From contig JAJEKV010000006.1 of NCBI GenBank assembly GCA_021234155.1, forward strand, positions 13,110,143 through 13,174,142: a DNA stretch of 64,000 nt, read 5' to 3'. The DNA comes from Isoetes taiwanensis (taxonomy: Eukaryota > Streptophyta > Lycopodiopsida > Isoetales > Isoetaceae). The notes beneath the pieces were generated by a model, which was given only the letters and a program-made list of their open reading frames with translations, did no database searches and had not been told where the DNA came from. This document shows, piece by piece, positions 1 through 51,465 of the stretch. Numbering within the stretch: position 1 is the first letter of the stretch; every line of letters begins with the position of its first letter. The position numbers were made by a program, and so were the translations under genes.

Positions 1-595
1 ACCTTATTCTATCCGCAGTAACCCTATTCCAACCATTTTGGCTCAGCTCCGTGTCATCAAGCATTTCAACCCATATAGGGTCTCCCTCCATACTAGCTAT
101 AGCTGCCTGCTTGTTAGCGATTCGCCCATTAAAATCCCCCAATAAAAGAACATCACCTGCTGACATCAAGGAAAGCACGTCCTGCTCCAGATTAAAAAAG
201 GGGTCGTCTCTGTCTAGATGCTCTGTATTATAAACTGGGGATTCTCTCGGCGGAAAGTAACAACCTGCTACAAAAATCTTTCCTCTCTGGCCAAGCATTT
301 CAATCCAAATATGCTGCAGTGATCCCATTCCTGTCACTAGTTTTATCAAATGTCTCATATTTGTCCTAACATAACATGCTATTCCACCGTGACCTTTTAA
401 ACGCCATCCTTTATTATACCAGACAGAATGTAACAAAATAAAACCATGAATGTCAGGTAAGCTTTTCTCCTCGTTCTCACAAGTTTCTAGAAAAAATAAA
501 ACATCTACATTTTCAAATAATTCACCCATTACATCTACCTTATACTGGCTAAGACTATTAATGTTCCAGCATGTTATTCTGGTGGTCTCAAATAC
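1..595 (-). CDS. LINE copy A ORF2, N-terminal endonuclease domain (partial)
   Basis: After the UAG at 598-596 the same frame stays open to base 1, about 198 codons. It encodes an apurinic-type endonuclease: the WNINS motif with its catalytic Asn near the start, FFLETCENEE, GGIACYVR, a PPRESPVYN segment and LLLGDFNGR. No ATG lies between the UAG and the WNINS motif, and the first in-frame ATG (VMGELF) would remove the motif. AUG initiation therefore cannot produce a full domain. The domain should nick target DNA for target-primed reverse transcription. The RT and C-terminal regions are outside the window. Confidence 0.88.
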
Positions 596-598
596 CTA
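596..598 (-). promoter_or_regulatory. In-frame UAG-G between ORF1 and ORF2 of LINE A (putative readthrough site)
   Basis: The ORF1 stop is TAG with G as the next base. The downstream frame reads V-F-E-T-T-R-I and then the endonuclease start. Copies B and C have the same codon, the same +4 base and a related E-x-x-R-[I/M] segment. A single in-frame UAG between two genes matches the arrangement used for readthrough expression in several retroelements. Activity is inferred, not shown. Confidence 0.65.
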
Positions 599-1555
599 TG
601 CATCATCTTGGTCTTCCACGACAACTTTGCCGCGCCTCCAGAATGCTTTTTTCCCCATTTTTCTTGCGTCCTTGAGTACCTGTAATTGATTTTTGTGTTC
701 TTGTAGCTGGGTTTTTGTAAGGTCGTCATTGATCCAAATTTTCTTCCCTTTGAGCATGGATTTCTTTTTCAATACATTAAGTTTATCTTCTCGCGAGCGA
801 AACTTAACAACAATGTGTCTGTCCCTGCCATTTTGTTTACCAATGCGAAATGCATCTGTAATGCCTGTATCTATTAGCTCGAGATCATTCTCACAAAAGC
901 TTTGTACAATCTCTTTGGTTCTTTCTTTAGTTTGCTCAGGTATTCCAATTAAGCGAATGTTCAAAGCTTTTTCCTTTCTTTCTTGTTCCTCCATAAAGGA
1001 TGCTAGCTGGTTCTGGATGTCTGATACATGTTTGCTATGATGTTCTGATATATCATGTTCTTCTGCATCATCGTCACTATCGTCATCACCTCTCATAACA
1101 TCCTGCTTAAAAGTTTCCAGTTCTGATCTAATACCCTGTTTAAATTGCTCTAGCTCTGCCATCATCTTGCTTTGACATTTCTCTATTTCTGATTGCACAT
1201 GAGCAAGCAAGAAAGATTTGAGATCACTGACCATGTTCTGGACAGAAGTTTCCATTGACACTTTCATAGACAAAGTTGAAATTTCCATTGCTGCCCGCAT
1301 TTGCCCAACTGCATCCAACAAGTCTTGTTTAGTGACTCCAGCATCCCAATCGGACTCTGATTCAATTGTGCCATAATGGTTTTTGCTTGTGACTTTCGCA
1401 GCCCTGATTATCTCACAGTCCTCTGTTTTGCCGGATTTCATATCCCTGGTTACAGCAGAATGCTTCAAAGCTTTATTACAGTCTCCTGTTCTTACATTTC
1501 GGTCGCGGTCCCTGTTTCTTTCCAGTAAGCGATCCCACGAATCTGCGGTCGCCAA
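596..1555 (-). CDS. LINE copy A ORF1 protein (coiled coil + Transposase_22-like RNA-binding domain), 319 aa
   Basis: Intact 319-residue ORF. Residues about 75-195 are Met/Glu/Lys/Gln-rich and heptad-like, as expected for a trimerising coiled coil, with an acidic run (GDDDSDDDAEE) near 155-165. From about residue 200 comes the L1 ORF1p-type fold: NIRLIGIPE, then DAFRIGK, RHIVVKF and a basic C-terminal domain (IWINDDL, KDARKMGKKAFW, GKVVVED). In this family ORF1p binds the LINE RNA and acts as a chaperone in the ribonucleoprotein particle. The frame ends with UAG at 598-596, and ORF2 continues in the same frame. No CCHC zinc knuckle is present. The start is the first ATG of the open frame; the upstream duplicated leader is not open. 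Confidence 0.88.
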   Translation of the reverse strand: MATADSWDRLLERNRDRDRNVRTGDCNKALKHSAVTRDMKSGKTEDCEIIRAAKVTSKNHYGTIESESDWDAGVTKQDLLDAVGQMRAAMEISTLSMKVSMETSVQNMVSDLKSFLLAHVQSEIEKCQSKMMAELEQFKQGIRSELETFKQDVMRGDDDSDDDAEEHDISEHHSKHVSDIQNQLASFMEEQERKEKALNIRLIGIPEQTKERTKEIVQSFCENDLELIDTGITDAFRIGKQNGRDRHIVVKFRSREDKLNVLKKKSMLKGKKIWINDDLTKTQLQEHKNQLQVLKDARKMGKKAFWRRGKVVVEDQDDA

Positions 1556-1950
1556 TCTCCCAACTCTGAAGTTGCAGACGAACCAGAACTAGATTCCGAC
1601 ATACTTTTGCCCATTTGTTTTGTTATCTTTGTTGTTGAATCGATGGTCATCTCCAAAGGCGACAAAGCCCTTTGTTCATATCCACAGTTACAATGAATGC
1701 CTTAAAACTTTGTTACAGTTCTCTGTTTTATCATTTTCAGCGCAATCTCCTATTTTTCGTATCGATTACGCCTTTGTTCTTTGTCTATTTCATCAATCTA
1801 ATAACAAAAGCAGACAACTCTGAACTGTTGCAAAGCGAGCGAACCCGGTTCCGACATCCACATTTCCCTTTGCCCATTTGTTTATGATTTGTTACCTTTC
1901 TTGTGGAATTGATGGCGCATCTCCAAAGGGCGACAGGTAAAGCCCCTTGA
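1449..1950. repeat. Imperfect tandem duplication of the LINE A leader/ORF1 start (two units of about 240-270 bp)
   Basis: The segment at about 1449-1680 recurs, diverged, at about 1687-1950. Matching pairs in order are GTTACAGCAGAATGC with GTTACAATGAATGC, ATTACAGTCTCCTGTT with GTTACAGTTCTCTGTT, and CTCCAAAGGCGACA with CTCCAAAGGGCGACA. The outer (5') unit covers the ORF1 start but is not open. Tandem 5' monomers that carry promoters are known for mammalian L1; a similar role here is only inference. Confidence 0.7.
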
Positions 1951-2017
1951 CTTTCTTTTCCATGTCGGTTTTAGAGGTGCATTGCCCTAGTTCCCTTGTG
2001 TGCGCCATCGCTTTCAC

Positions 2018-2021
<4 letters not shown>

Positions 2022-2109
<88 letters not shown>
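2022..2109. repeat. (GA)44 microsatellite at the LINE B 3' end / LINE A 5' end
   Basis: An essentially pure GA dinucleotide tract of 88 bp. It lies directly beyond the 3' end of LINE B and just upstream of the LINE A leader, both on the minus strand, where it reads (TC)n. Confidence 0.98.
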
Positions 2110-2113
<4 letters not shown>

Positions 2114-3285
2114 TCGTCTTTTTTAGAGGCCTCCCTAGGCCTATAAGGCGACATTATTATACATCATAGTCATAAAAATTAGATGAGTTTCCAATTCCTC
2201 ATCCAATTCCTCACTCTCACTCAATGCATCCTCTTCTTCTATTAGGGTATTTACATTTTTAGTACAACTCTCTCTATCTTTGTAGAGTCTCAATTAAAAG
2301 GATCCAATTCTATTTCCTTCCAATCCAAAAGGTATGCAAATCAGGCGCGTTGATGCCATATCTATCTCGTATTATACTATAGGCTGGACATCTCCCAATC
2401 TCCACACCTAGATGAGTGCGGTGAGGCGGTTCTGCGATATTGTGCCTCTTCTTTTATCGATAAGTTCTCCTTTAGATGTATTGCCTCATCAGCGTGAGGA
2501 TTCATATGCATCTTGTACAATATCATCTTAGTCTTTGGGCTCATCCACATTTTTTCTTCTAACCTTTTCATAGACCCATGTTCTCGGGTTGTCAATGGAA
2601 ATTGCCTCTTCCCACATGATATCCCATCACATCAAGCCATGTCTTGACATCGACAAACTCATCCTTTATGTTCGGTGTTCGGACAAGCATAATAAGGAAT
2701 GCGTGTGGCATCCATCTTTTTTATTTTAGCAAGGTACCTAATGCATTTGAGTAAAGCTTCCCCTTCAAATTGGCATAGTGCCGCGTTATCTAGCATCATC
2801 GGATATGTGGTTTTAGCCTTTACACCCAATTCCGGCTGAGAAACTTCTTGTGTACACATTTCAATATCATCCCAAGAGCCTTGTGGCAGCCCCCGCAAAT
2901 TCAGCCCCATATAATACTATGCTTTGGACTAGAGATTCATATGGTTTAGTGGCCATGCCCATATGTAGGTTTTCACGCACATGCTTTGCATAGAATCTGA
3001 TTATATTACGCCCGCTTTCAATTCTTTGTTGTATGCATTGATGCCATTTATGATTCCTGCTAATAGTAAGTCCCAGGATATTTATATGTCTACCATATCT
3101 CAACTTTTTCACCCAAATAGAAACCCATGTTCTGCTTGGAGGCACCTCTTGTCATGGTTTTAGTCTTCTCTAGATTTACTTGCATCCTCGTTTTGTTATT
3201 CTGAGCGACCAATTGATCAAGTAATTCTTTGCATGTGTACACAGGATGTTGCAAATAGCACCACATCATCAACATATAAGAAAGC
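2110..3285 (-). pseudogene. LINE copy B, 3' part: end of ORF2 (from the RT YVDD motif) and 3' UTR
   Basis: The minus-strand translation, in shifting frames, begins with AFLYVDDVVLFATSC (RT catalytic box) at about 3285-3240. It continues with a NLEKTKTM-like palm end, a thumb-like segment (INGINAYNKELKAG) and a C-terminal stretch (VSQPELGVKAKTTYPMMLDNAALC) that recurs in LINE C at about 10,550-10,650. Many stops and frameshifts show decay. The 3' UTR ends with a small hairpin (2127-2142) and GACGAATAAT, then the (GA)n tract. The upstream RT half lies at 7615-9784, beyond an inserted DNA element. Confidence 0.85.
2127..2142 (-). other. 3'-UTR stem-loop of LINE B
   Basis: Sense (minus) strand AGGCC...GGCCT with a short loop, followed by GACGAATAAT and (TC)n. 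The equivalent hairpins in LINE C (9845-9857) and LINE D (49498-49511) keep pairing while the sequence changes. A 3' structure recognised by the RT is known for stringent-type LINEs; the role here is inferred. Confidence 0.6.
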
Positions 3286-3306
3286 CGTATTTAATTAAAG
3301 TGGGAC
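3286..3306 (+). repeat. Left terminal inverted repeat (21 bp)
   Basis: Perfect inverse match to 7594-7614; it contains the palindrome TTTAATTAAA followed by GTGGGAC. Confidence 0.9.
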
Positions 3307-3437
3307 AAATCTTGAATATTGGGACTCGGTGAAAATGAGACTCATATTGACATCAAAATTTCACATCATATAACAAGGGCTGGTTCATAATATTTTCTTA
3401 CGAAATTTCCAAATAAATAGTTGAGAAAGTTGGGCGG

Positions 3438-3714
3438 GTGATATCGAAGGGGGAGGAAGGGGAAGGCGGGAGTGAGAAAGGGGGGGAGAAGGGGGCAAAG
3501 GGAGAAGAGGGGCAAGGGGAAGGGGCAAAGGGAGAAGAAGGGGCAAGGGGAAGGGGCAAGGGGCAAGGGAGAAAAGAAGGGGCAAGGGGCAAGGGGGCAA
3601 GGGGAAGGGGAAGGGGCAAGGGGCAAGGGGATGGGGCAAGGGGCAAGGGGCAAAGGGGCAAGGGGCAAGGGGCAAGGGAGAAGAAGGACAAGGGGCAAGG
3701 AACGATATCCATAA
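3438..3714 (+). repeat. Purine-rich minisatellite (GGGGCAAGGGGAAGG-like units)
   Basis: About 280 bp with almost only G and A plus isolated C, built from variants of GGGGCAAG and GGGGAAGG. Overlapping open frames on both strands (Gly/Lys/Glu-rich on plus, Pro/Leu/Ser-rich on minus) are composition artefacts. Polypurine runs with G4 blocks could form triplex or G-quadruplex DNA. Confidence 0.9.
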
Positions 3715-3789
3715 TTTAATTAATTATAAAATAATTTAATTAATTTAATTAAATAAATAACTAATAAAAAAATATAAACCATTCTCCTC

Positions 3790-3960
3790 TTCTCGACTAG
3801 TGAGTCGAGAATTGGAAAAAACTATAAATCCCCTCATTGTTCTCTTCTCCAACTGGTGGTGAGAATTGGAATAACCAAGTCAAATTGCTTTCGATTAAGA
3901 ATCGGATTGTCTGAGAATTACTAGTGAGTCGAGGTTGGAATAACCAATTCAAATTGCTCG
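3790..3960 (+). repeat. Short repeats around TCTCGACTAGTGAGTCGAG and AATTGGAATAACCAA
   Basis: Three imperfect copies of a CTCGACT-AGTGAGTCGAG palindrome-like core plus GAATTGGAATAACCAA and CAAATTGCT(T)CGATTAAGAA. Similar CTCGACTCGCGAGTCGA cores recur at 6.5-6.9 kb in the same element. Non-coding. Confidence 0.65.
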
Positions 3961-3961
3961 A

Positions 3962-4350
3962 TTAAGAACCGCTCACATGAGTAGGATGAAAAAATGTAGG
4001 ACCGCCTCCCAGCGGAGTTCTGCCATAGCCTCCCGGACTTCCCCCTCCATATCCTCCACCTCCGCCATAGCAGCCTCGGGAACCTCCTCCATAGCCCGAC
4101 TCTCCATAGCCAGGACCTCCATAGCCACCGCCTCCATAACAAAAAATATCAGGAACAATACAACTAAAAATGAGCATAAAGAAACTAAGAGAAGCATGTG
4201 AAGCAAGGACACTGAATGAAAAGAAGAGGGCGTCGTCGCGTGAGGATGGAAGGTATAAGCGAGGTGAGGGCCGTCTTTGAGGCCGTGTTGATCCTCCATA
4301 GCTAGGACCTCTGCCATAGCCACCGCCTCCTCAAGTATCCCTTTCCTCCT
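3962..4350 (-). pseudogene. Glycine-rich protein-like coding fragments
   Basis: The minus strand at 4150-3970 encodes GYGGPGYGESGYGGG-type repeats, and 4345-4260 encodes GGGYGRGPSYGGS-type sequence in another frame. This resembles plant glycine-rich proteins. There is no signal peptide, stable start or continuous frame. The intervening Leu/Val-rich stretch could be an intron or part of a hydrophobic N-terminus. It may be a captured gene fragment inside the DNA element; composition bias limits certainty. Confidence 0.4.
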
Positions 4351-5668
4351 AGACCATTTCTGCGCCTGCGCAAGGCTGAGAATGTGCCGAGGAATGAAGC
4401 CGAGCTCCATTGCCATACGCCATCCTGGTATGGTGTGTGGATACCATGGCAAAGAGGGAATCTCCTGGGAATTTTGGAGGTGCGGCGGGTGTGCTTGAAA
4501 CTCGCCTTAGTATTGTTTTCTGCAATGCCACCAAGTACAAGCAATGGCGTAACGAGCATCGGATGAGAGTGATTACAGCAATGTTTCCAAATGGAAGGGC
4601 ATTTGTTGAATTGTAAACTATTGCAAGCGTGTTCAAGAAAATAAATGTCGAGAACAAAGGTCCGCAATCAAGACACAGAACTCCAGCTTACCCAGTTTTT
4701 TTTGCGGCGGCGGCCGAGCCCGACGACCTTCCTTCCGCCTCCTCCATATCTTGAGGATTATCTTTCTTTGTTGCGGCTATGGAGAGCTTCTTTTTAGGTT
4801 ACGTATATGCATAGTTATCCCAGATTTAATTTTGAGGAAAACACATTCAAAAGATAGCTCGAATTTAGAGAAGGGCTCCGCCATCCCGGAATAGAAGGCG
4901 TCTTTGGCTTTTGAGAGCAGATAATCCGGCGACCTCTGCCTCCTCGGCATAAGAGCGAGGAGAAGGTCCGGCTATTAGGCTAACGTGGCGGCATCCCCAC
5001 CTCCTCCTTTTTATGGTCCTCTACCATGAATCCTCTGTTTTTCTTCTTGTATCCTCTGTTGTGTGCTCTTTGCTGCTTCAAACTCCCTTGGAGCTTCAAT
5101 CACAGGAAATCGGGCAACTCTTTGCTTCAAACTCCTTTGACCTTCAATGCACTTCAAACTCCCTTTGAGCTTCAATGCTGAAACTCCCTTTGGCGGCAAA
5201 TCCGGTAGCTCTTTGAGCTTCAAACTCCCAAATCGGTCACTTGGGCTCAATCCGGCGACAATCAGCTCCTAGCCTTTGAGTCTCGACCCATGAAGAATAG
5301 GATAAGCCGGAGGCGGGAACCGTCGGCCAAAAATTGATTTTTTCAGAAGAACGGGCAAGCCAGGATGCGGCTTTTTTGTGCAAATCGGTCTTGTGGCAGG
5401 TCGGAAGTGCTTGGCAGAGAATTTAAAAGCCCGTGAAGGATTAAATCAATGAAAATCGGGCCTGTGGCACGCCGAATTTATCCGATTTGAGGAGAGTATG
5501 CATGCTAGGTTCAAAATGCTTGGAAATCCAAGAAGAATGGACGAATCTGCCGGATCCTTTTCATCTGCCTCCTTTCTGTCCTTTGCTCTGCCCTTTGCTC
5601 TGCCCTTTGCTTTGCATTTTTTGATCTCGAATCTCCATAGTGTGAAGCTTTTTGGTTGCCGTGGAGCT
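4351..5668. other. Unassigned interior of the DNA element
   Basis: Mixed non-coding sequence. At about 5040-5240 short related phrases recur (CTTCAAACTCCCTTTGAGCTTCAATGC). Open stretches at 4410-4616 (plus) and 4302-4667 (minus) have no recognisable motif. No transposase signature is seen. Confidence 0.5.
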
Positions 5669-5734
5669 ATGGCTACGGGAGCTTCTTCCGGAAAGAAAGA
5701 GTTCGAAGTGGTACAAAGGATTTTCGTCTCAAAG
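5669..5734 (+). pseudogene. Exon-like segment with ATG and splice donor (unknown product)
   Basis: The ATG at 5669 lies in a good plant context (GCTATGGCT). It opens 22 codons beginning MATGASSGKKEFEVVQ and ends at AAAG|GTATGT, a strong donor. An acceptor-like site (TTTTGCAG) and an exon-like stretch follow at 6979. This could be the first exon of an element gene or of a captured host gene; no family is recognised. Confidence 0.3.
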
Positions 5735-6162
5735 GTATGTACCAAATTTTAAAATTCAAGCATAGGCGGGAAAAAAAGGCGGGGTATTAGAAAAAGGGGA
5801 TAAAATAATACGTTGAAAAAGAAAGTGTAAAATAAATGATAATAATATAAGATTATATTTTGACGTGTCCCAAATTTCAAAATTCAAATATTGGGGAAAA
5901 AAGGGCGGGGTATAAGAAACGTAGAGAGAGTTTTGAAGTTGTCATAATATTTGTATAATGCATTATTATTAGTTGTAAGGGTAAGTAGGGTAAATTATTT
6001 TTCAGTTGTTATAATGTGCTATAGGTGCATATGATGTCCATTAGATAAATACATGGGGAGGGTCTACTTATCATAGAAAATTTATGGGGAGGGTAATTTT
6101 TCATAGAAAATACATAAAATATTGTGTTTATTAAAAAATACATAGTATAGTAGTGTGTGCTA

Positions 6163-6420
6163 GTATAAGATGCTAATGTGTGCTAATACTAATGTGTGCT
6201 AATACTAATGTGTACTAATGTATAAAAATGCTAATGTGTGCTAATACTAATTGTGGTAGTATAAAGTACTAATTGTGTGCTAATTGTGGTAGTATAAAGT
6301 ACTAATGTGTGCTAATTAAGGTGTGCTAGTATAAAAATGCTAACGTGTGCTAGTATAAAAACAATTGTTAAATACTAATGTGTGCTAAATACTAATGTCT
6401 TTGTGAGAAAAACAATAAAA
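6163..6420 (+). repeat. Tandem CTAATGTGTG / AGTATAAA-type AT-rich repeat
   Basis: About 260 bp of irregular repeats of CTAATGTGTGCTAATACTAATGTG and TAGTATAAAGTACTAATTGTG. Non-coding low-complexity interior of the DNA element. Confidence 0.75.
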
Positions 6421-6526
6421 ACTATGGTGTGATAGAATAATAAACTATGGTGGAAAATTAGATGGATAGATAGATAAAATGATGCTCATAAAAAAATAAT
6501 CTACGGCCCTTAGGTGCCTTTTTTAC

Positions 6527-6890
6527 TCTGAGCTGCCTTTCTCGACCAGCAGTCGAAAGCCCAGCCCTAAAGCTAGTTTTAAGCTTTGAAAGCTGCCTTT
6601 CTCGACTCGCGATCACGAAGGCCTTCGACCCCCTAAAACCTGCGTTTTTAAACTTTTGGCTGCCTTTCTCGACTCGCGAGTTGAAAAGGCCTTGACTAAA
6701 ACACCATGTTTTTAGCTTTGAGCTGCCTTTCGACTCGCGAAGAAAAACTCCTTTTCCCTAAAACCCGTTTTTTCGCTTTTGAAATTTGCCTTTCGACTTT
6801 CCGAGTCGAAAGGCCTTCTAACCCCTAAAACCTCGTTTTTAAGGCTTTGTTTGCCTTTCTCATTCTCGCCCAGTCGAAAGGCCTCTCATT
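6527..6890 (+). repeat. About 62-bp tandem repeats carrying a palindromic TTTCTCGACTCGCGAGTCGAAAGG core
   Basis: Five to six degenerate units, each of the form GCTGCCTTTCTCGACTCG.. then GTCGAAAGGCC, TTCGACCCCTAAAACC and TTTTTAAGCTTTG. The core is self-complementary (CTTTCGACTCG/CGAGTCGAAAG) and recurs roughly every 60 bp, so single strands could form serial hairpins. Confidence 0.75.
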
Positions 6891-6978
6891 TGTATTTTCA
6901 AAATGGCCCTAAAAACTGTTTTATTTTAATTTTTTTGCCCATAGCATCCACTTGACTAACTTGATTTTTCTTTTGCAG

Positions 6979-7140
6979 TCCTTATCTCGGACCAGATAGT
7001 ATATGCTTGGGAGCGATGAAAAGACGAGTTCATTGAAAAATGATGCGAGGAAGAGGGTGGTGACATCAGTTGGACATACAAGCACGTGGCCTATGAAGGA
7101 ACTCCTCATACAAATTTCTATAAATGCAGCAAAGTTGCTC
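6979..7140 (+). pseudogene. Exon-like segment after a TTTTGCAG acceptor (possible transposase N-terminal fragment)
   Basis: After a good acceptor, one frame reads DEFIEK..CEEEGGDISW then TYKHVAYEGTPHTNFYKCS, with one stop. The order Trp...His-Val...Lys-Cys is faintly like a BED-type zinc finger, but the second Cys and the His pair are not clear. It may be part of the element's own gene. Function uncertain. Confidence 0.25.
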
Positions 7141-7593
7141 AGTGACTTGGGCCAGCTCCATAGTTTGCACTAGGTGGTTCATGTGTGAAGATGGTGTAAT
7201 CATTGTGATATCGACCACTATGGTCGCTTCACCTTGTAATATATATTGTAATGAGCCCATTTATAAATATAAGATATATCAAAACTAGTATTTTTGGTGA
7301 TTAAGTAAACAATTTCGTAATTTTTGTTGGAATTTGTGATCTCTTGTCTACCCACCTAAGAAAATAGAGCCAAAATGTCTTGGTAAAGGAATTCACCCTC
7401 CGCGAAAAACTCTTATTTTGAATGACAAATAAGCCCCAAAACAGGGACTTGACTTCGCTATCCCAGAAAAAACGGGAGAAAGCTTGGATGCAGCTGATGC
7501 TGAGACAAAAATTGAATTAAGGCCGGTTTTTTGGGTTGGGGGTGCTCCTTTTTGTGTAAAATAACGAGTTCGAAAAAAGTGGGAATGGAATGA
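7141..7593. other. Unassigned interior next to the right TIR
   Basis: AT-rich sequence without a recognisable gene or repeat. Confidence 0.5.
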
Positions 7594-7614
7594 GTCCCAC
7601 TTTAATTAAATACG
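7594..7614 (-). repeat. Right terminal inverted repeat (21 bp)
   Basis: Perfect inverse match to 3286-3306. Confidence 0.9.
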
Positions 7615-8976
7615 ATTTAAGAGCAATTGGATCACATATCCTTGAATCTCAGTGCCTCCATCACAGTTATTATGTAACCATTCTTCATTATCCAATAAAG
7701 AGACCAAATATAGTAGGAGACAAGGGGCATCCTTGTTTAACTCCAATGCTACTTTCAAGCTGTATCACGGTATCTCACTTTTTGAATGGCATCGATAAGC
7801 GTACTAAAACTTTCTCATAGAGTATTTGAACTGCATCCCGCAAGTGTTTAGGGACACATAATTGCTCCATTCTTTCCCATAATCTATTCACAGGAACTTT
7901 GTCAAATGCCTTGTGAAAGTCTACAAATGTGACATATAGAGGTTTCTGGTCCCCTTGACCAAATCAAAAATGCATTTTAATGCAAGCAAATGGTCAATGT
8001 GGACATTTTAGCCTAAAACACCTTGGGTTTTGGCTCTTTTTCGTTATGCTCAGCCCAAAGACTAATTTTTCTCTACAATATTTGCAAATAATTTAGAGAA
8101 CAAATTACTTACCATAAAGGTTACGTAATTGTTTCCGCCTAGCATGGAACCACTCTTATGCACCGGGAACAATTCGGTTGAGCTGCCACTCATGTGGGAA
8201 TCCTTGTTGCATTGCTAAGGTAAAACATCGTGCTATTATTGTATGGATGGATGCCCCTGCCCATTTAAGATGCTTCGGCACATATCTGTTTTGATCCTTT
8301 GCTTTGCCATTTGCAAGACTATATCGATCTTGAAATGACCACTTCTTCTTTTTTTGTAAAAATCATATCAGACCTCACTTTTAGTGGGGCCTCGATGCTA
8401 TCATCATGATATAAGTGTTTAACTTGGTTCCGTAGCTCACTTGCGACAAAGCGGGATTTCACGTGTGTTAGTGCTTTTTGAGATTTTTCCAAACGATTTT
8501 GGATCATTTTGGTATTGGGTGATCAAGGTCTCCTGCTGCTTTAGTACAAATTGTCTCTTTTTTGCCTTATGATCCTCCGATATGCCTTTCTTAGGGCTGT
8601 TTTGCTATCATCATGGCAGTCCCTCCATTTCCTTTTGGCTATTGGCATGTTTGATCATACCAAAACTTGCATTGTAGCCCTTTTCTATGCCCACCTTGGC
8701 TTACATTGCTCCGTGGTTTACGTTATGATACCCGGCAACTTCTTATTCATGTAGATCCACGATTGCCATCCCAAGTGCTTTGGCCAATTTTGTCTTCTAT
8801 ATACATCCTATATGTGGCAGCCATACTTGGCCTAAGCATGCTCAATTTTGGATGATCTACATGCTCCATTGCAAGAGGTTTTAACCGGCATTCATGTAAA
8901 GAGAATCTGATTGGTATATGATCAGATTCAAGGTATTATGTTCTTATATCAAAATCTAAAATCACCTCCAAATCAT

Positions 8977-9711
8977 CTAGGTGAGATGATCAAATAGTCT
9001 ACCACACTTCTTGCTCTGCGGTACATGGCCCAGGAGGCGGAAATTTCTGATTCCATTGCATATCAAAAGCTCGGCATTAGTGCATAGATTTAGCAGCTGG
9101 CGACCAGACCTAGTTATGAGGTGATCCTCAGAGCATCTATTCCAGCCTTGCTTGGTCATCTCCTCTTCCTCCATGGTCTCAAACCAGAGAGGATCATCTT
9201 CCCAAGTATGGATACTAGCTTGCTTGTCTCCGGTTCTTCCATTGAAGTCTCCTGTCAAGATTACAGTCCCTTGCATTTGAAACCTCAAAATATCTTGTTC
9301 CAATTTAAAAAAGATATCCTCCCCTGTGGCTCCATCCGAATAAGCCTTTTTATGACGTGGTGCAAAATAGTATGCAGCTAAAAATATCATACCAGATGGG
9401 CGAGTTATCTGTATCCATACATATTGATTGTTGATGTCCTTTTTACATGCAGACACTAAGTCTGAGTATTGATCTCTAATGTAACAAGCCACTCCACCAT
9501 TTCCAATATCACTTCCTGTGTAGCTTTTATTCTTCACGGATGTCACCAATGTGAATCCATCAATGTCTGGCAAAGCGTAGAGGTCATGTTCTTTTGTTTC
9601 TAAAAAGCATATTATGTCAATGTTTTCCAATTCATCCTGCATACTCAGGATTTTTGTCTCCGTCAATTTATTTATATTCGAAACCATTATCCTGAGTGCC
9701 TCCCATCTGTC
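8977..9711 (-). pseudogene. LINE copy B endonuclease domain
   Basis: About 240 open codons after the UAG at 9714-9712. It carries MVSNINKL (equivalent to WNINS), DIICFLETKEHD, GGVACYIRDQ, the AAYYFAPRHKKAYS segment and VILTGDFNGR, then NGWNRC-like and LLNLCTNAELLICNG motifs. In the family this nicks DNA to prime reverse transcription. The Trp of the WN motif is replaced by Ser (SNINK). The frame breaks near FDHLT at 8977, before the SDH motif. Confidence 0.82.
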
Positions 9712-9714
9712 CTA
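9712..9714 (-). promoter_or_regulatory. In-frame UAG-G between ORF1 and ORF2 of LINE B
   Basis: ORF1 ends ...GKVIIEE and then TAG with G following. The same frame continues D-R-W-E-A-L-R-I-M into the endonuclease. Equivalent to 598-596 and 13178-13176. Confidence 0.65.
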
Positions 9715-9784
9715 TTCCTCAATGATCACCTTGCCTTTGACCCATTTTGCTTTTTGATTGTTTTGTCTGGCTTCCTTATACTTA

Positions 9785-9809
9785 GAGAGAGAGAGGAGAG
9801 AGAGAGAGA
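9785..9809. repeat. (GA)n tract at the LINE C 3' end / LINE B 5' break
   Basis: GAGAGAGAGAGGAGAGAGAG-type tract of about 25 bp. On the minus strand it follows the LINE C tail (TTTCATTTCATTTCATC) and precedes the ORF1 remnant of LINE B. Confidence 0.93.
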
Positions 9810-9844
9810 TGAAATGAAATGAAATGTTGTATTATACGTCCAGG

Positions 9845-9857
9845 AGACCATCGGTCT
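9845..9857 (-). other. 3'-UTR stem-loop of LINE C
   Basis: Sense strand AGACC...GGTCT, followed by CCTGGACGTATAAT. The stem differs from that of LINE B (AGGCC/GGCCT) by a compensatory pair. Confidence 0.6.
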
Positions 9858-11461
9858 AGAAGACGTTCAAAAGATACATTCAAAATCATATGCCATAATA
9901 TCTAATGCGTTCTCAGATAGAACATCATTAGAGTCATCTCTCTCATTCTCATCCAAGCTTATTAATAGTGAGTCAAGATTCTTAGCAGCACTTTAGTAGT
10001 TCCCAATCCTCTTACACGACAAAGCAAAAATTGCACTAACGATGCTCGTTGATCTCAAATCTAATCCTCAAATAGTGGTATCTTTGGGCATTTGGAATAA
10101 CATGTTCCTCGTCCTCCACCTCACCTTGATCCACATAACTTCACAGTCCTAAGCTCATGAGGTATATTATGCCAACGACCCATCTCTACTCCCAAGTGAT
10201 GTGAACCCAGCCTTATCCTACGGATAGTGTGTCGATCTTGGTGGAGACTCCCTCATATAAGTAAGACATCTCCTTCAATGTTGGGTTCATAAACTCCAAT
10301 TAGTACATCTTTTTTAGGTGCACGGCCTACTCCAAGATTTCCATTACCACTGCTTCTCTTACCCATTCCCTTATCCCGTGTCTTTGTTATCGTTTAGCTC
10401 ATTTATGTCCATATCCCATTTCTGAGCCATTCTTTTATGTATGGCATACCATCCACTACTAGAGCTTTCCTCCAACGCTAAACGTGGTAGGCTGCTATCA
10501 TCCATAACGTATAAAATCTTCTTTATGTAAAGCAGAGTCTTACATAAAGCTTCACCTTCAAGAGGTAGTAAACCACATTCGCTAACATCATGTCATAAGG
10601 AGTTTGCATCTTAACCCCTAACTCTGAGTGTAGGAATTTTTTCCTCAATTTTCTCTACTCTTTTTTCCACATCTCAATGCTAGCCCCCGTCCCCACGCCG
10701 CATCCATACAAGACAACCGTTTGAACTAATGAAATATATAACATTTTCTTTAAAATTTGGTTCGGATGCAGCCTTTTTTACATTTCATTTGTAGTGCAAA
10801 AAGAGCTTTTCGGCCCCGCCTACTCTACGATCAAGCGCTTGATTCCATTTAAAATTTTTATCTACTATCAAACCCGGTATTTATATATACTTGATATCTC
10901 CACCTTTTCTCCCCTTATAGTAAAAATCAAAATTCTCTACTTTTTTTTGCCAAAAAAAATCATAACTTTTGTTTTAGCTAAATTCACTCTCATACATTTG
11001 CATCACAAAAGGCCGCTAGCACGTCTAGATGCTTTTGCATTCCATCTCCGGTCCAGTGATAACAACAAAATGTCATCGGCATAAAGCAGGCATGACCACA
11101 TATCCCGCCAATGGAGTACCTCCCCCCTGTGATTGAGTAATCCAGGCTTCTAATTCATCAATGAAAATTCCAAACAAATTGGTGATAGAGGACAACCCTG
11201 TTTTACTCCAACATTACTCTCTACCAAATCTTTGCATTTATCTAACAAGGGGAAGAAAGGCCGGACCCATACTTTCTCATATAATTTGGCCCTTTGCATT
11301 TTACGTATGATTCTGGAACTCCTATATTCTTCATGCTTCCCCTGAGTTCTCTCTTGGCACCATATCAAATGCCTTAGTAAAATCTACAAAAAGCGCAAAT
11401 AGTAGTTTCTTTTTTCCCTTTAACAAGCATCCATCATTGTTAAGTGTCTGGACCAAATGGC

Positions 11462-12685
11462 TCAGAGTGGATTTTTTGGCCTAAAACTAGCTTGCCCAAT
11501 GGCCCTTACATCAGCCCCCTCCGCCCATAAGCTGATTTTCGACTCTAGGATAGTAGCATATAGCTTTGAGTATAGGCTACTAATCATTATCATTCTGTAA
11601 TTTCTAGGGTCCAGTTCGTCACCTGCTTTATGAATGGGAGTGATTCTATTTACCTGCCATGAATGCGGGAAGCCTTCCTGCAATGCTGCGTTATACATAT
11701 CTGTAAGTTTCTCTGCCACTGCGGAACCACCCCATTTAAGCATCTCAGCCATTAGGCCCATCGCATCAGCTGCTTTTCCATTGGAAAGCTTGTGCAACCC
11801 ATTTGCAACATCCTCAACCGATAAGACAAGGGTATTATACCCGCCATCCATGCAATGGCTATTCATTCCTGGCACATGATATAACTTACGTATTTGGTGC
11901 ATGAGATCATCTGCATCTAGCTTTAGTTCCCCATATTTTTTACTCTTTAGTCTATTCCAAAACTTTTTGGGTTCAATTATCAAGTTTTTGACAAATTCCT
12001 CTTGCTGCCTACGCATAAAAGCCCTTTTCTTAGACTTAATCAGCCTAATATATTCCTTTTTCAACTGCTTTTTATCATCGTCACCTGCTGCCTTAAACAT
12101 TTGCCTGCTTGCTTTGCACTCCATATCGAACCATCCATTACATGGTAGACCCTTCAACCTCCTCTTAGAAATAAAACAATTCTCAGCAATATTCATGAGT
12201 ATCCGTGATAATAAATCACTTATTCCTTCTGCATCATGTGGCCAAATAGCTTCTAGCATCAATTTCTCACATTGGGTCTTATAAATCTCCGCCTTCCTGC
12301 TTGTCAGATTAACTCTCTTATGCCTAAGAGGTGAGTGTTTTTCCTGATAAACATCTTTTATATATACCTCGATAAATAGTGGCACGTGATCAGACTCAGT
12401 GCGAGTATCTCCAACAACCATTGTTGCAACCTGATCAATAAAATCTGCATTGGCAATAATAAAATCCACTACACTTGAACCTCTACATGTACATTTTTCA
12501 GTGTCTGGGAACTTAGATAAACCATTATATATCACCAAATCAAGTCCACTGCACATGTTAAGTAAATGATTACCTTGAGGCGTCACCCATCTATAAGAAT
12601 CATGTGATGTACGGTTCCAGCCATTCAACCTTAAAGCTTCTTCATCCATCATTTCCATCCATAACGGATCTCCATCTGGGCTCAA
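11462..12685 (-). pseudogene. LINE copy C ORF2 fragment: endonuclease C-terminus to RT N-terminus (407 open codons)
   Basis: Open frame with the last endonuclease motifs (SSVVDFIIAN; TESDHVPLF, which includes the catalytic SDH). A Lys/Arg-rich linker follows (RRLKGLPCNGWFDMECK, KKEYIRLIKSKKRAF, KKFWNRLK). RT blocks 0-2 come next: LSNGKAADAMGLMAEMLKWG, RITPIHKAGDELDPRNYR, ISSLYSKLYATILE. It stops at 11462, and RT continues in other frames (FVDFTKAFDMVP; GVKQGCPLSP at about 11,200; YADD at about 11,080). ORF2 carries out nicking and reverse transcription; this copy is broken. Confidence 0.88.
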
Positions 12686-13175
12686 CCTAGCTGCTTGTCT
12701 ATTTGCAATCGACCATTAAAGTCACCGAGATCAAGAAGCGTTACCAATAGCCATCAATTCAATTGCATCCTGTTCGGCTGAAAAAAGGGTCATCTTTATC
12801 CGGATTATCATTATCATACACTGGTGATTCTCTAGGTGGAAAGTAGCATCCTGCAACAAATATCTTACCTTGCCTTCCATTTATCTCTACCCAAAAATCT
12901 TTTTAGAGTTGTTTTTTTTGTCAAAGAAACTAAGTTTTTGAATTTGTACGCACATAACAAGCCACACCACCATATCCTCTCGTCTCCATCCTTTATTATG
13001 CCATACTGAATGAACCATATGAAAATCCGGAATATATGGTAGACCACATTCCTCGTGTTCCCAGGTTTCAAGAAAAAAGACCAAATCAAGAGATTCGAGA
13101 ACTTCACTCATTGTACTAACCTTTTCTTCATTTAGTTTGGTAATGTTCCACGCTCATCCTAATGGCCTCGCATCC

Positions 13176-13178
13176 CTA
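13176..13178 (-). promoter_or_regulatory. In-frame UAG-G between ORF1 and ORF2 of LINE C
   Basis: TAG with G following. The same frame continues G-C-E-A-I-R-M-S toward the WNITKL motif, where a one-base insertion shifts the frame. The C-terminal ORF1 residues are still in frame with the stop. Confidence 0.62.
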
Positions 13179-13987
13179 TGCTGAAGAGGATGCCTCCTCT
13201 ATGATCAATTTTCCATATTTCCAATATGCCTTCTTGCCCGCTGCCTTCTTTGCATGCATATTCTCTTTTATCGAGTTTATATTGCTCATCTTTTCTTTCT
13301 TGAGATCTTCATTTATCCATATTAGTTAAGCCCTTTGAAGGCCGCGGCTTCCTCCCGGAATGTTCATCTTGCTTTCCACTTTTTGGAATTTAATTACCAC
13401 ATGCCTTGGTCTATCTCCCTTTTCCCCACTCTAAAAGCATCGATGATTCCCGGTCTCATCTATTTGCATTGCACTTTTTAAGAATCGATCAACACTCTCT
13501 CAACAACATTTTCTTTTACTTGTTCAGGAATGCCAACTATTCTTAAGTTGAGTAATCTGTTCTTTTTCTCTTGCTCAGCTAAGAAATCCGAAAGTTGTTG
13601 TTTCATATCTGTGATATCAGCAATGGAACTCTCTACATCATTTACCGTCATGTCTCCCATGTCTTCCTGTACAGGTGCATTTATTTGTAGTCTCAGATTG
13701 CCAATTTCACTCTTGATTTCAGATCTCATTTTCTCCAAATCTGCTTTGAAATTTTCAGATAGAGTATTCCTGATGTCATGCATCATTCCCTGGACTTCTT
13801 GGATGAAAATCTTCCTGAAATCTGATAGCATATCCTTCACTGAAGTTCCTATCATTTGTACAAGATTATCAATTTGTGGTACCTGTTGCAGAGAAGAGTA
13901 TTGTGGGAAGCCGAGACTGGAAAAGCCATCCAAATTCTGAGTAGCAATGTAGCGAATTTGTGTTACTGTTGCGAGAGAGGAGCACAC
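13176..13987 (-). pseudogene. LINE copy C ORF1 (frameshifted)
   Basis: Open from 13987 to 13478 (169 codons): a predicted coiled coil (MLSDFRKIFIQEVQGM, NFKADLEKMRSEIKSEI) and then NLRIVGIPEQVKENVVER, the L1 ORF1p RNA-binding signature. After 13478 the continuation is in shifted frames: GIIDAFRVGK, WINEDLKKEKM, then GKKAYWKYGKLIIEE, ending SSSA and UAG at 13178-13176. The domain order equals that of LINE A ORF1. Confidence 0.85.

Positions 13988-14022: not shown

Positions 14023-14026
<4 letters not shown>

Positions 14027-14076
<50 letters not shown>
14027..14076. repeat. (GA)n tract with G run at the LINE C 5' end
   Basis: About 43 bp of GA repeats followed by a run of G. It directly precedes (minus strand) the LINE C leader TGATGTGCACTGATGTGCAG. 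Confidence 0.95.
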
Positions 14077-20606: not shown

Positions 20607-22325
20607 ATGGCAAGCAGGTTTGGTGCAGGGTTGCTAAATGCAATTGAAGTATTCAAAGGGGATTCAGGCTTTCAAGTCTGGAAGGAGAAAGTGAAGCATG
20701 TTTTGCAGGTAGAAGATCTTTGGGATCTTGTAGAAGGAGGAAATGGGAACCTAAGAAGCTCAGGAGGCAGTATAGTTGGAAGAATTGCAGCAGAAGGGAG
20801 CTCTTCTTCAAATGAAGAACAAGCTGAAGTAGATCAGACCCGAGAAGTGAGTCAAATATCTAGGAGAAACCTTGAAGAGAATTCTAAGGTGAGAGAAGCA
20901 CAAGGAATCATAATGAGCAAGGTGAGCTCAAGTATTGTCTTAAAATTAAGAGGCATGAGTCCAAGTCAGATGTGGAAGTATATGCTACTAACCTATGAGG
21001 AAAAAACTTCTTCTCAGATAGATGTCTTGGAAAATGAGCTGAGAAGATTGAAGTTTAATGAAAAAGATAATATTAATGATTTCTTTCAGACCTTTGATAA
21101 TATTGTGGCAGACTTAGAAGGGGCAGGTGTACTCTATTCACAACAACAGCAAGTATTGGCAATCTCTAGAGCTGTTGCAGGTTTGGGAAATATTTCAATG
21201 TTCATTAGAACAATAGCTAAGACTAGAATAGAGGCAGAAAGAATGCTTAAGACTGAACTGGAACAAAACAGAGTTTTAGAAGAAGAGGAAAGCTCACAAA
21301 TATTGTTCACAAAAAATAAAGGAAAAGGGGAAGATCGAAAAATAGGTCCATGCTATAATTGTGACCAATTTGGTCACTTGAAAATCAACTGTCCTAGCCT
21401 AAAGAAGGAAATCAACTGTTATAACTGTGGGGGCAGAGGCCATTATGCTTCTAACTGCTCAACTCCAAAGACAACTCAAAGGGGAAGGGGAAGAGGTGGC
21501 AGAAATAATGCAGGTTTCAGAGGAAGAGGCAGGAATTCTTACCATGAAGCAAATGTAGCTGAAGAGATAATGCTTGAAGATGATACAGGGGAAGAAATAG
21601 AAGAGGTATGTTCTCATAAGATTTTTTCTTGCCATAACAACATTGATAGTGATGATTTTATGATCCTAGATAGTGGAGCCGAAAAAACAATTGCATGCAA
21701 CTCCAAAATCTTGAAGGAGAAATCAGAAAATAAAGGGGGATACATCCAAGTTGGCAATGAAGATTTGCAAAAGGTAGAAGAGACTGGAATACTTGAGTTG
21801 TTCACATTAGAAGGAGAAATTGTAAACTTACAAAATGTACTTTGTGTACCAAGTTTGGTTAGAAACTTAATATCCATATCTCAGCTTGTTGACATGGGTT
21901 TTAAAGTGGTATTTGAGCAATTGTATTGCAAGATTTATGAAGGAAATAAATTAAAGTTTTTAGGGAGAAGAGTTGGTAACTTGTTTGGCATAAATGCAAA
22001 ATGTTTTGGAAGTGCAAACTTATCCACAACTCCAAACATTATAACATGGCATCAAAGGCTGGGACATACCAATATCAAAAAAAACATTGAGACAATGATA
22101 AAAAATGGATGGATCAAATCTGAAGATAGCAGACTTGAAAATTATATTTGTAAAGGTTGTATGCTTGGGAAACACTCGAGACTTCCTTTCTCAAAAGCCA
22201 AAGGAAGATCAAATGAAATTTTAGGATTAATCCATACTGACTTGTGTGGTCCTATAGACTGGAAAAAGGTACTTCATAACCTTTTATTGATGACTTTAGC
22301 AGAAAGACCAAGATATACTGTCTAA
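20607..22325 (+). pseudogene. Copia polyprotein, part 1: Gag, zinc knuckles, protease, integrase N-terminus
   Basis: 572 open codons from ATG 20607, 16 bp after the PBS. Residues about 1-230 are Gag (capsid-like). Two CCHC knuckles (CYNCDQFGHLKINC and CYNCGGRGHYASNC) lie near 248-290, followed by an Arg/Gly-rich stretch. The protease motif is FMILDSGAEKTI near 350. The integrase zinc-binding region (WHQRLGH ... CKGCMLGKH) lies near 475-530, then IHTDLCGPI. A frameshift near 22,260 closes the frame. Confidence 0.93.
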
Positions 22326-22920
22326 GAAGAAAGGATTTGGCCTATGAAGCTTTCAGAGAATATGCAACAGAGGTGGAGCTTGAAACGCGCAAGAAAATCA
22401 AATGTGTAAGGTCGGATAGAGGAGGTGAGTATCTTTCATTCAAATTCAAAAAATATTGTAGTGACAGGGGCAATACGCTTGTAGCTATACACCTCAGCAA
22501 AATGGTGTAGCTGAGAGAAAGAACAAATCAATATTAAATGCTACTAGATCCATGATTAAAGAAGCAGGCTTACCTAATTTTCTCTGGGAGGAAGTAGTCA
22601 AGACAGCAGTCATGATACAAAACACTTTGCCATCTGTAAGTATAGGAGGAAAAAGTCCAGATCAAATGTGGTCAGGAAAATTGACAAACTATGAAAATTT
22701 TAAGGTGTTTGGATGTCTAGATTACACTCATGTACCTCAGGAAATGAGAAAGAAGTTGGATGACAGGTCAATAATCACATATCTAGTGGGATATGATGAA
22801 AAGTCAAAGGGTTTCAGAATGTACAACCCCTTAAAGAAAAATATTGTGGTAAGCAGGGATGTAAGCTTTGTACAAGCCTGGAAAAGGAAAGGAAGAAGAA
22901 AAACAGAATGCAAACACTAA
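22326..22920 (+). pseudogene. Copia polyprotein, part 2: integrase core and C-terminus
   Basis: Continuation in shifted frames: an RKDLAYEAFREYA segment and VRSDRGGEYLS (second catalytic Asp), then an open frame with PQQNGVAERKN (catalytic Glu), FLWEEVVKTAVMIQN, the FGCLDY segment and the LVGYDEKSKGFRMYNP motif. It ends at 22,920 by frameshift. Confidence 0.9.
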
Positions 22921-22946
22921 TGATAATAATTTGACAAACAAGGAGG

Positions 22947-24783
22947 TTGTTACAGCAGAAAACACAGATCAAGGAATGGAATCTGATACAGATCCAGAAG
23001 AAGGAGATGCAATTGAACAAGAAACTGTCACAAGAGCCACTGAAATTCCAAAAAAAAAATGCTGAACATATGAACATGAAAGATGACATGAAAACAAAAA
23101 GAAGAAAGCCTGAAGGGGAAAGGCTTCGAGAAGAACTAAAGCTAGATATATCAGAATATGGAAGACGAGCAGATGGGAGAAGCAATAGATTGGAAAGTCA
23201 AGAATCAAACAATGATGAGGTTTTAATGATAATGCAAGCTGGAACACCAGAAACATTTGAAAAGGCAATTAGAGGCATTGAAGGGCATAAATGGAAACAT
23301 GCCATGTTAGAAGAAATGGACTCTTTTGAGAGAACTGGCACATATGAATTGGTTGATTTGCCAAAAGGAAAGCATCTAATAGGTAACAGATGGATTTACA
23401 AGCTTAAAACGAACTCAGATGGTACTCCAAAGTATAAGGCAAGATTAGTTGCCCAGGTATACTCCCAGAAGAAAGGCATTGACTATGAAGAAACATATTC
23501 TCCAGTGGTGAAGTTGGTCAGCATAAGAACCTTTATTGCAATCTCAAATGCTTTAAATTTAGATCTACATCATATGGATGTATGTACTGCATTCTTAAAT
23601 GCTGATTTAAAGGAGGAAGTATACATGTATGCTTTGAGAAGGGAATTGGAAAAGTGTGGAAATTGAAAAAGGCTGTTTATGGCCTAAAACAATCACCCAT
23701 AGAATGGTATGCTTGTATAAATGAATTCTTGAAGGAGCAAAGCTAACAAATGATGGAAATGTTTACATGCTTAAGGAAATGGAGAATTTTTGCATTATGG
23801 CAATATACGTGGATGATTGTATACTAGCAGCAAATAATACAGAGTTCTTAGAAAATTGCAAAGAATTATTGAAAAGAAGATATAAAATGACAGATCTTGG
23901 TGAGTTGTCACAATATCTTGGGGTGCAGGTGAAAAGGGATAAATCCAGAAAAGTTATATCTTTAAGCCAGAGCAAATACATAGATACTGTACTTGAAAAG
24001 TTCAACATGCAGGAATGTAATCCAGTTAAAGGACCTATTCTCCCAGGATGTAAAATCTCCAAACAAATGTGCCCTCAAACTGATGAGGAAACTGAAGAAA
24101 TGAAAAAAATTCCATATAGGCAGTTGATTGGAAGCTTGCTGTTCTTAGCAAATAATACTAGGCCAGATATTGCATATGTGGTAAATGTTTTGAGCAGATA
24201 TAACAACAACCCTGGATTTGAACACTGGTTGGCAGCAAAGAAGGTACTAAGGTATTTAAAGGGAACAAAAACAAATGGAATAGTATATAGAACAGATGAC
24301 TTGCAGCTAAAGTGTTATTCAGATGCAGATTGGTGAGGAGACTTGGACGAGAGAAAGTCAACTTCAGGTTATGTTCTAATGTTAGGTGGAGGTCCTATAA
24401 GTTGGAGAAGCAAGAAGCAAACATCAATTGCACTATCTACTGCTGAATCTGAATATGCTGCAACTACCTTGGCAGCTAAAGAAGTTATATGGACAAGGAG
24501 ATTACTGGAGGAGTTGGGAATTAATCAAGAAGGAGGTACCAAGTTATTTTGTGATAATCAAAGCTGTATTGCCATGACTAAAAACCCAGTCCTTCATGAA
24601 AGGACCAAGCATATCGAAATGGAGATGCATTATATCAGAGATATGGTAGGAAAAGGATTTATTCAATTGATATACATTAAAAGTGAAGATCAGTTAGCAG
24701 ACATGTTAACCAAAGCTTTGGGTTGGAAAAGGTTTCAGAACTTAGCAGAAAAATTAAGTTGCTATGATATTATGAAATTATGA
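22947..24783 (+). pseudogene. Copia polyprotein, part 3: reverse transcriptase and RNase H
   Basis: RT: HKWKHAMLEEMDSFERTGTY, KHLIGNRWIYKLKTN, QVYSQKKGIDYEETYSPVVK, MDVCTAFLNADLKEEVYM, then after a frameshift AVYGLKQSP and AIYVDDCILAANN (catalytic YVDD). RNase H: YLKGTKTNGIVY, CYSDADW, then a TGA at 24334-24336, then [39 protein letters not shown] and HYIRDMV. The end (24,783) lies just before the purine tract. There are at least three disruptions. Confidence 0.93.
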
Positions 24784-49921: not shown

Positions 49922-50589
49922 CCGCTTGAATGGAAGCTATAAGTCACAGATCTTCATGGGCATTTGGGTGTACAAGTCTTGGTGTGGGCCTCTTGTGAGC
50001 CTAGGGATTGACTTCTTGGCGATAGTGTGCCCGACTTAACGTCGCGTCGAGCCTACGCATCCCGGCTTCGCGAAGGAAAGTAGCATCTAGGTGCAGTTTA
50101 AGTGCCTCGCGATCTTTCTTTGTCCCGGACGGGCGATCTGTTTGCTTGCACGCCCGGTGGAGAACCATCGAAGCTTGCTTATCTTTCCGACCTTTTGGAT
50201 TACACCGTGGCCAAAGCAAGATGGGGCAAGCGTGTATCCATAGCCAGCGACCACCTTTAAAAGTAAACGATATGGCGTTCCAATGCAGCCCGGAAGGGGT
50301 AGAAAGCCCGTCTCATGGAGTAGGATCTGGTGCGGGCTGTGGACTTCACCCCGGGGCCCGTGCCAAAAGGCCTTACACCGCTTTCGAGGTCATTCCAGTC
50401 TTTGAGGATATCACCGACCCCACACTTCTGCCCCATACAAAAGGACCGCTCAACCAAGGCCCAAACAAATGTGACTGGTGGCCCCAGTATAACTCGCCTT
50501 TGTGGTCATTTGTTACGCATGGCATACGCTGCTTTCCAACCCGCCATGACCCGCAATCGATAGCCGCGATTCCAATGGGTGGTAGTTGA

Positions 50590-51310
50590 GAACTCAATCC
50601 CCAAGTACTTGTAGGTCGGAGCCACCTCTACCTCTTGCCCCCGGTAAGTGAAGGTGGGAAGCCCCGGTCGTGGGACGATGCAACTAGCAAAGACCTAGTT
50701 TTGGCCAAGTTAACTTCGCATGCCCGGTTTAGCAAAAGTGTCAAGAGCATCCAGTGTGTTGCATGTCCTTTGGAGTATAGGCCATGAGGTTGACATCGTC
50801 GGCATATATGAGTTGCGGATTGTGTGATGCATGAGATGTGTACGCCTCCCCATGCTCGAGAGAGCCAATCTTCCAACCGATCAATGTATAGGCCAAAGAG
50901 TGTGGGGGAGAGGGGGAACCCCGACGACTCCAATGCTACGGATTCTGCGCTACCGCTGCTGATGTGATACGGCCCGAGCATGCCTCGCATTGGCCTATAT
51001 AATCGTGCATTCTCACAAGTTCGGGGGTCCCCTACCGCTTAATCCGTCCCGAGCTTGTTGCGGGTAATCGCGGTCGAACGCTTTTGCAAAATCGGCCAAA
51101 CAACAAAGATGTGATTCGCAAGGATTCCCGCTATCCTCAATCAATGCGCAGAGTGAAGATATGATCAATGGTGGAATGGCCGGAAACCTGCCTTTGTGTA
51201 AGAGTCGCGCCTCCGTTTCCTCTGCCCATATTGTCACGCTGCTCAAGGATGCCCAATAATTTTGCAAGAGAGAGTCATAATAATAGTACGGTAGTTGGCG
51301 GGCATTGAGG
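50590..51310 (-). pseudogene. LINE D reverse transcriptase
   Basis: CCLADFAKAFDRDYPQQ (RT block 3) near 51,090 and SGFPLSPTLFGLYIDRLEDW near 50,900. NPQLIYADDVNLMA (catalytic YADD) lies in another frame near 50,810, then VNLAKTRSLLVAS. The order matches LINE RT. Frameshifts separate the blocks. Confidence 0.82.
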
Positions 51311-51465
51311 GTCCCCCGCTTTGTATATGGGCACTACTCAGCTAGTGGTCCATTGCGTAGGGAAGCCTTCGCAATGCTTTATTGAACAATGCCGTGAGGA
51401 CCAGCACCCGGCCCAGCCATTTCGAGGTTCTCGTCAAGATGCCATCTAAATCTGCCGCCTTCCCA

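Follow-up and report, generated by a model that had tools for sequence, protein, structure and literature searches.

Our analysis indicates that dozens of diverged families of long interspersed nuclear elements (LINEs) in the lycophyte Isoetes taiwanensis retain a UAG stop codon followed by G between their two open reading frames (ORF1 and ORF2), and we consider it very probable, judging from the sequences, that type III (UAG-G) programmed readthrough of this stop best explains how ORF2 would be expressed. The stretch of DNA that we analysed (the window) comprises 64,000 nucleotides of contig JAJEKV010000006.1 (assembly GCA_021234155.1, positions 13,110,143 to 13,174,142) and carries three LINE copies, A, B and C, all on the minus strand, for which an earlier note made from the letters alone had suggested readthrough. 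Readthrough is favoured by the frame that ORF1 and ORF2 share, by the near-invariance of the UAG-G, by the scarcity of AUGs ahead of the endonuclease in copies with an open ORF2, and by a signal in the nucleotides around the stop; the first three of these are the main support for the earlier suggestion.

In copy A, an open ORF1 of 281 codons, counted from the first Met (599..1441), ends in a UAG with a G at position +4 (596..598), the candidate readthrough codon. A linker of nine codons without an AUG (569..595) then leads from the stop to the W of the motif WNINS, the Asn of which is catalytic in other apurinic/apyrimidinic (AP) endonucleases. The part of ORF2 that lies in the window (2..595) encodes an AP-type endonuclease (Pfam Exo_endo_phos). 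It had been noted previously that both ORFs of copy A are open and that no AUG separates the stop from WNINS, and both statements are correct: ORF2 has only 198 codons in the window but runs beyond it to 1117 stop-free codons in the genome (locus L009), and the next in-frame AUG is codon 23, past the motif. The full ORF2 carries both Exo_endo_phos and RVT_1 (Pfam), with the reverse transcriptase (RT) part lying outside the window. Copy B likewise has a UAG followed by G (9712..9714), with 244 codons of endonuclease frame past the stop (8980..9711; Exo_endo_phos), so that the claim of a TAG-G with the same frame open into the endonuclease was confirmed for A and B; here, however, an in-frame AUG is found at codon 9 (9687-9685), before the endonuclease motif. 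The ORF1 remnant of B is short (9715..9783), apparently due to a 5' truncation at a (TC)n tract. For copy C, only half of the same claim stood: the TAG-G is present (13176..13178), but the frame fails to reach the endonuclease, as 25 nt lie between the stop and the motif's TGG, and WNIT..L is read in a different frame. Copy C, which has an in-frame AUG at codon 7 (13157-13155), is thus a broken copy at its junction; its ORF1 (13179..13846, found by tblastn with A ORF1) has a broken frame, and remains of its ORF2, covering endonuclease, RT and C-terminus, extend over 10051..13150 (tblastn with L009 ORF2). The endonucleases have diverged, with residue identities of 40% between A and B and about 35% between A and C (tblastn).

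We then collected junctions between ORF1 and ORF2 from the whole assembly (1,658,258,908 bases in 1110 contigs). A search with the 401-nt A junction yielded 294 candidates, of which the best 40 were all taken, together with a 41st junction present in one of the loci (L018b). Protein searches with the B and A endonucleases gave 9529 and 9486 candidates, respectively; from the best 150 of each we took 60 for B, comprising every one of the 16 whose open frame exceeded 1050 codons plus 44 others lower down, and 12 for A, namely all new ones that were free of inner stops and had 1100 or more codons open. With the window copies B and C included, and L010 left out since its 401-nt junction is identical to that of A, the sample came to 114 junctions; apart from window copy C itself, it covers the families reached by A and B. 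The position of the stop was defined by the motif in B-type copies and by alignment to A in A-type copies. The junctions were also grouped into 49 clusters at less than 85% ungapped identity, several of which are A1 copies split off through indels.

TAG stood at the aligned place in 112 of the 114 junctions and TAG-G in 110, and there was no UAA or UGA among the 112 aligned stops. The two departures from +4 G are L077 (TAG-A) and L136 (TAG-C), while L095 and L103 have a TAG-G that is displaced relative to the WNIN-like motif. We observed that L136, a copy with an open ORF2, reads TAG CAA ATA, which is near the tobamovirus type I context UAG-CAR-YYA. The same frame continued into the WNIN-like motif in 108 of the 114 junctions, the six exceptions being L095, L103, window copy C, the A1 copies L011 and L023 (both with indels) and L032 (diverged past the linker). 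Alignment of the genomic copies, which the earlier note had proposed as a check, therefore showed conservation of the frame, the UAG and the +4 G, and this persisted in copies with as little as 48% endonuclease identity to B. Many A1 and A2 copies have decayed outside the junction.

The same picture was seen among the 29 copies whose endonuclease falls within an open frame 1051-1117 codons long (A itself, 16 from the B search and 12 from the A search). All 29 have TAG, and 28 have the +4 G, the other being the TAG-C described above. The conserved end of ORF1 is in frame up to the stop in 28 of these copies; L125, which lacks it, is apparently truncated there, and in L061 the long frame begins past a frameshift beyond the motif. 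From the stop to the WNIN-like motif, 24 of the 29 are free of AUG, while the remaining five have one at codon 8, 9 or 10.

Several comparisons suggest that the stop and its surroundings are held by selection. In a parsimony reconstruction on 58 B-type sequences, the TAG did not change at all, positions +4, -1 and +12 changed once each and position +6 three times; the same reconstruction gave a mean of 11.4 changes at 29 third positions of endonuclease codons and of 10 at four two-fold purine third positions. The terminal stops of ORF2 served as an internal control. These were read in 20 copies (4 A1 and 16 B-type), and the 13 with the usual end were counted. In the seven that were dropped (L012, L015, L021, L053, L061, L062 and L064), the frame stops prematurely or at a different place; among them, the final stop is TAG-A in L012 and L062 and TAA-G in L021. 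The 13 terminal stops comprised seven TAA, four TGA and two TAG, followed by T in six cases, A in six, C in one and G in none, while the same 13 elements all had TAG-G at the end of ORF1 (Fisher P 2e-5 for TAG and 2e-7 for G, relatedness uncorrected). Moreover, the stretch from -2 to +14 nt around the stop, which was picked post hoc with the data already seen, held only one singleton among 22 A1 copies, versus 6.4 expected, and only one when the 16 A2 copies were added, versus 12.5 expected with CG and CHG sites allowed for.

What appears to be conserved downstream of the stop is a run of nucleotides. Codon 1 past the stop begins with G in 48 of the 49 clusters, encoding V, E, G or D in these 48 and Q in the remaining one, and it is GTA, GAA or GGA in 45. 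When the codons of 31 B-type clusters were randomised synonymously, an A at +6 (seen in 25 clusters, 11.6 expected), a G at +12 (30, versus 10.9) and the pentamer GGAGG (25, versus 6.2) were each more frequent than in any of 2000 simulations; in B-type families, GGAGG starts 9-10 nt past the stop. In 22 pairs of 70-90% identity, the proportion of synonymous differences (pS) was 0.25 in codons 1-5 and 0.36 in codons 6-10, whereas the corresponding values were 0.57 for the ORF1 end and 0.60 for the endonuclease. For codons 1-5 of these pairs, the proportion of nonsynonymous differences (pN) was 0.23, which gives a pN/pS of 0.93, and the ratio was 1.39 and 2.00 for two sets of more similar sequences (20 and 17 pairs, with few differences). 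As pS is lowered while pN/pS is near 0.93 or higher, constraint on the linker seems to act on nucleotides more than on protein, in keeping with a cis-acting signal and not with a conserved peptide. The putative signal can be written as A-UAG-GNA, with GGAGG in addition in most B-type families; it is conserved as a sequence, and it would act in the decoding of the stop.

If this reading is correct, ORF2 would be expressed as follows. The stop is retained, and most ribosomes would end there, freeing ORF1p. At the UAG, a minority of them would instead incorporate an amino acid, under the influence of a type III signal (UAG then G, within A-UAG-GNA and, in B-type families, mostly with GGAGG), and would stay in frame through a linker of 9-11 codons into the endonuclease-RT. 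The product would be an ORF1p-ORF2p fusion comparable to gammaretroviral Gag-Pol. We also find it fairly likely that a large lycophyte LINE lineage makes its endonuclease-RT solely as such a fusion, through UAG readthrough directed by a short linear signal, with no need for a conserved local RNA structure.

Several results weigh against readthrough or against parts of it. The earlier note had proposed a check for a stem or pseudoknot downstream of the stop, and 3' RNA structure is a usual part of type III readthrough signals. No conserved stem was found in copy A, in 30 B-type clusters or in the A1 and A2 copies: RNAalifold gave no consensus fold for the 30 clusters over 60-120 nt (pseudoknots and long-range pairing being outside this search), the fold downstream of the copy A stop had a z of 0.53, and single folds of the 30 clusters had a mean z of -0.32, with five below -2 but no fold in common. 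A weak stem in 33 A1 and A2 copies was unconvincing, as 4 to 12 of 100 column shuffles were equally good, folding of two sub-clades gave nothing convincing, and an Rfam scan of the window gave no matches at gathering scores. Likewise, protein-level constraint on the codons past the stop, a further check proposed in the same note, is not supported by the pN/pS values above, the constraint being on nucleotides. A conserved AUG before the endonuclease, named in that note as something that would speak against readthrough, does occur in some families, with an in-frame AUG in the linker of 14 of the 49 clusters and of 15 of the 16 A2 copies (none of the 22 A1 copies has one), though not in most copies with an open ORF2; the families with such an AUG could also reinitiate. 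Finally, all of the data come from a single genome and a single LINE lineage, in which copies are related by descent and hence not independent.

The linker AUGs bear on termination-reinitiation, in which ribosomes that stop at the UAG would restart a few codons later at an AUG or a near-cognate codon, as in SART1 or human L1, and which we consider unlikely. Reinitiation has been reported or proposed for SART1 and L1 (PMC5972666), and a nucleotide motif near the stop could perhaps hold post-termination subunits. Against it, 24 of the 29 open-ORF2 copies have no AUG before the WNIN motif, and CUG, GUG, UUG, ACG or AUG occur at no fixed codon of the linker (at most 15 of the 49 clusters per position). 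Nor does reinitiation require a common frame for ORF1 and ORF2, or UAG over UAA and UGA. Initiation of ORF2 independently of ORF1, at a non-AUG codon or internally from an internal ribosome entry site or a separate mRNA, leaves unexplained the common frame, the near-invariant UAG-G and the reduced synonymous change near the stop, and we regard it as very unlikely.

The stop might also be removed in the RNA, by splicing or by U-to-C editing of UAG to CAG, and this we hold to be highly improbable. U-to-C editing occurs in lycophyte organelles and, to our knowledge, is confined to them, which counts against such a route. The TAG-GTA of some junctions does look like splice borders, but 25 of the 49 clusters have GAA or GGA as codon 1 and hence lack a GU donor at this point, and the +4 and +6 bases too are retained. 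In favour of editing, its level is reported to be high in the Isoetes plastome (PMC8566536). The notion that shared ancestry alone makes a dead, non-functional arrangement from few lineages seem conserved can be all but dismissed: the protein searches do cover only the best ~150 of ~9,500 candidates each, and hence one lineage, yet no UAA or UGA appears at 112 aligned stops in spite of a pS of ~0.6 between families, the terminal ORF2 stops vary in the same elements, and 29 copies retain a long open ORF2 frame.

Low-level production of ORF2 protein is a long-standing question in LINEs, for which internal entry is another strategy, and stop codon suppression has reportedly been described in the soybean long terminal repeat (LTR) retroelement SIRE1, for an envelope-like protein. 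The strategies in print for LINEs include reinitiation (SART1, and proposed for L1) and 2A sequences (L1Tc), while a frameshift is needed for the HeT-A Gag and the case of TART is unresolved (PMC5972666 and PMC5009743). SART1 of the silkworm resembles the Isoetes elements in that translation of its ORF1 and ORF2 is coupled (PMC5972666), but there the stop and start codons overlap as UAAUG. In the Isoetes LINEs, the stop neither overlaps an in-frame AUG nor lies next to one, the linker AUGs falling at codons 6 to 10. L1Tc and other 2A LINEs have, according to the same paper, a recoding device in frame with the proteins, which is a 2A StopGo instead of a stop codon. A further close parallel is with the type III contexts listed in Table 5 of PMC3542737 (UAG-G, UAG-GGR and AAA-UAG-GUA), found in gammaretroviruses, Tombusviridae and luteo/poleroviruses: the gammaretroviral gag-pol and plant-virus sites share with the Isoetes junctions the UAG, the +4 G, an in-frame downstream polymerase or extension and the presence of GUA or GGA in the codons that follow. 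Gammaretroviral gag-pol has a pseudoknot in addition to UAG-G. The Isoetes element differs from these viruses in being a LINE, and a search for local folds, pseudoknots apart, found no conserved 3' stem in its first 120 nt.

In a limited search of open-licence literature, we found no report of a LINE whose ORF1 stop codon is read through into ORF2, and this absence is a weak one. As far as this search goes, the Isoetes elements would be the first non-LTR retrotransposons known with ORF1-ORF2 readthrough, and what seems to be new is a LINE bearing a candidate virus-type readthrough site. If true, ORF1p and ORF2p would be joined on one chain with their ratio set in a retrovirus-like way, an unusual route to the key enzyme for LINEs, and the many families would provide a set of natural variants of a plant readthrough signal of the type III kind.

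The proteins themselves are L1-like in the predicted fold of ORF1p and in the endonuclease and RT domains of ORF2. An AlphaFold2 model of copy A ORF1, based on 12 aligned copies (mean predicted local distance difference test score 75, predicted template modelling score 0.44), has a long helix (coiled coil), a domain like an RNA recognition motif (RRM) and a C-terminal domain (CTD). All ten PDB matches of this model at E < 0.001 in Foldseek were human LINE-1 ORF1p (2e-7 to 7e-6), so that the predicted fold resembles that of human L1 ORF1p. By sequence, ORF2 matched the R2 RT best in the PDB, and L1 RTs too, while ORF1 gave four weak unrelated matches only and the copy B endonuclease none; viral contigs searched for relatives of copy A ORF1 gave no match. 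A poly(A) 3' tail, typical of human L1, was not seen, the 3' ends passing instead into (CT)n in copy A and, by eye, in 12 of the 3' stretches from 16 B-type copies. Human LINE-1 thus shares with the Isoetes elements the coiled coil, RRM and CTD of ORF1p and the AP endonuclease and RT of ORF2, but its two ORFs are set apart by a 63-nt spacer, and translation from its ORF2 AUG has been proposed to begin by an unconventional reinitiation (PMC5972666), where the Isoetes LINEs have a single in-frame UAG and are mostly AUG-free.

The (CT)n tracts are found at both ends of the elements. In the window, (TC)n tracts (sense strand, all on the minus strand) lie 5' of copy A (2022..2109), in the gap from the 3' tail of copy C to copy B with its truncated 5' end (9784..9809), and 5' of copy C (14026..14069). 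Among the genomic loci L009-L028 and L049-L068, a sense-strand (CT)n of at least 10 nt precedes the junction by no more than 1.7 kb in 14 of the 19 A1 and 19 of the 20 B-type ones, with no upstream AG tract in any of the 39. On the 3' side, (CT)n starts 3390-3420 nt past the stop in 7 of the 19 A1 loci. These tracts suggest that the LINEs insert into (CT)n microsatellites or are tailed by them. LINE copies also stand head to tail with (CT)n joints at 2022-3076 and 9784-10100 of the window: a degraded 3' part precedes the tract 5' of A, and the 3' tail of C, with ATTTC repeats, abuts the tract before B. The former is a further degraded LINE copy on the minus strand, directly 5' of copy A (2395..3076, matching L009 ORF2 residues 772-1006 by tblastn). 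In L109-L124, many 3' untranslated regions of ORF2 have, by eye, a self-complementary sequence resembling AGGCCT...AGGCCT a short way ahead of the (CT)n, which is perhaps a candidate 3' hairpin for recognition by the RT.

Elsewhere in the window, a degraded, more distant relative of the same LINE class lies at 50288-52701, and the genes of a Copia-type LTR retrotransposon (gag, zinc knuckle and RVT_2) are found at 20607-23666.

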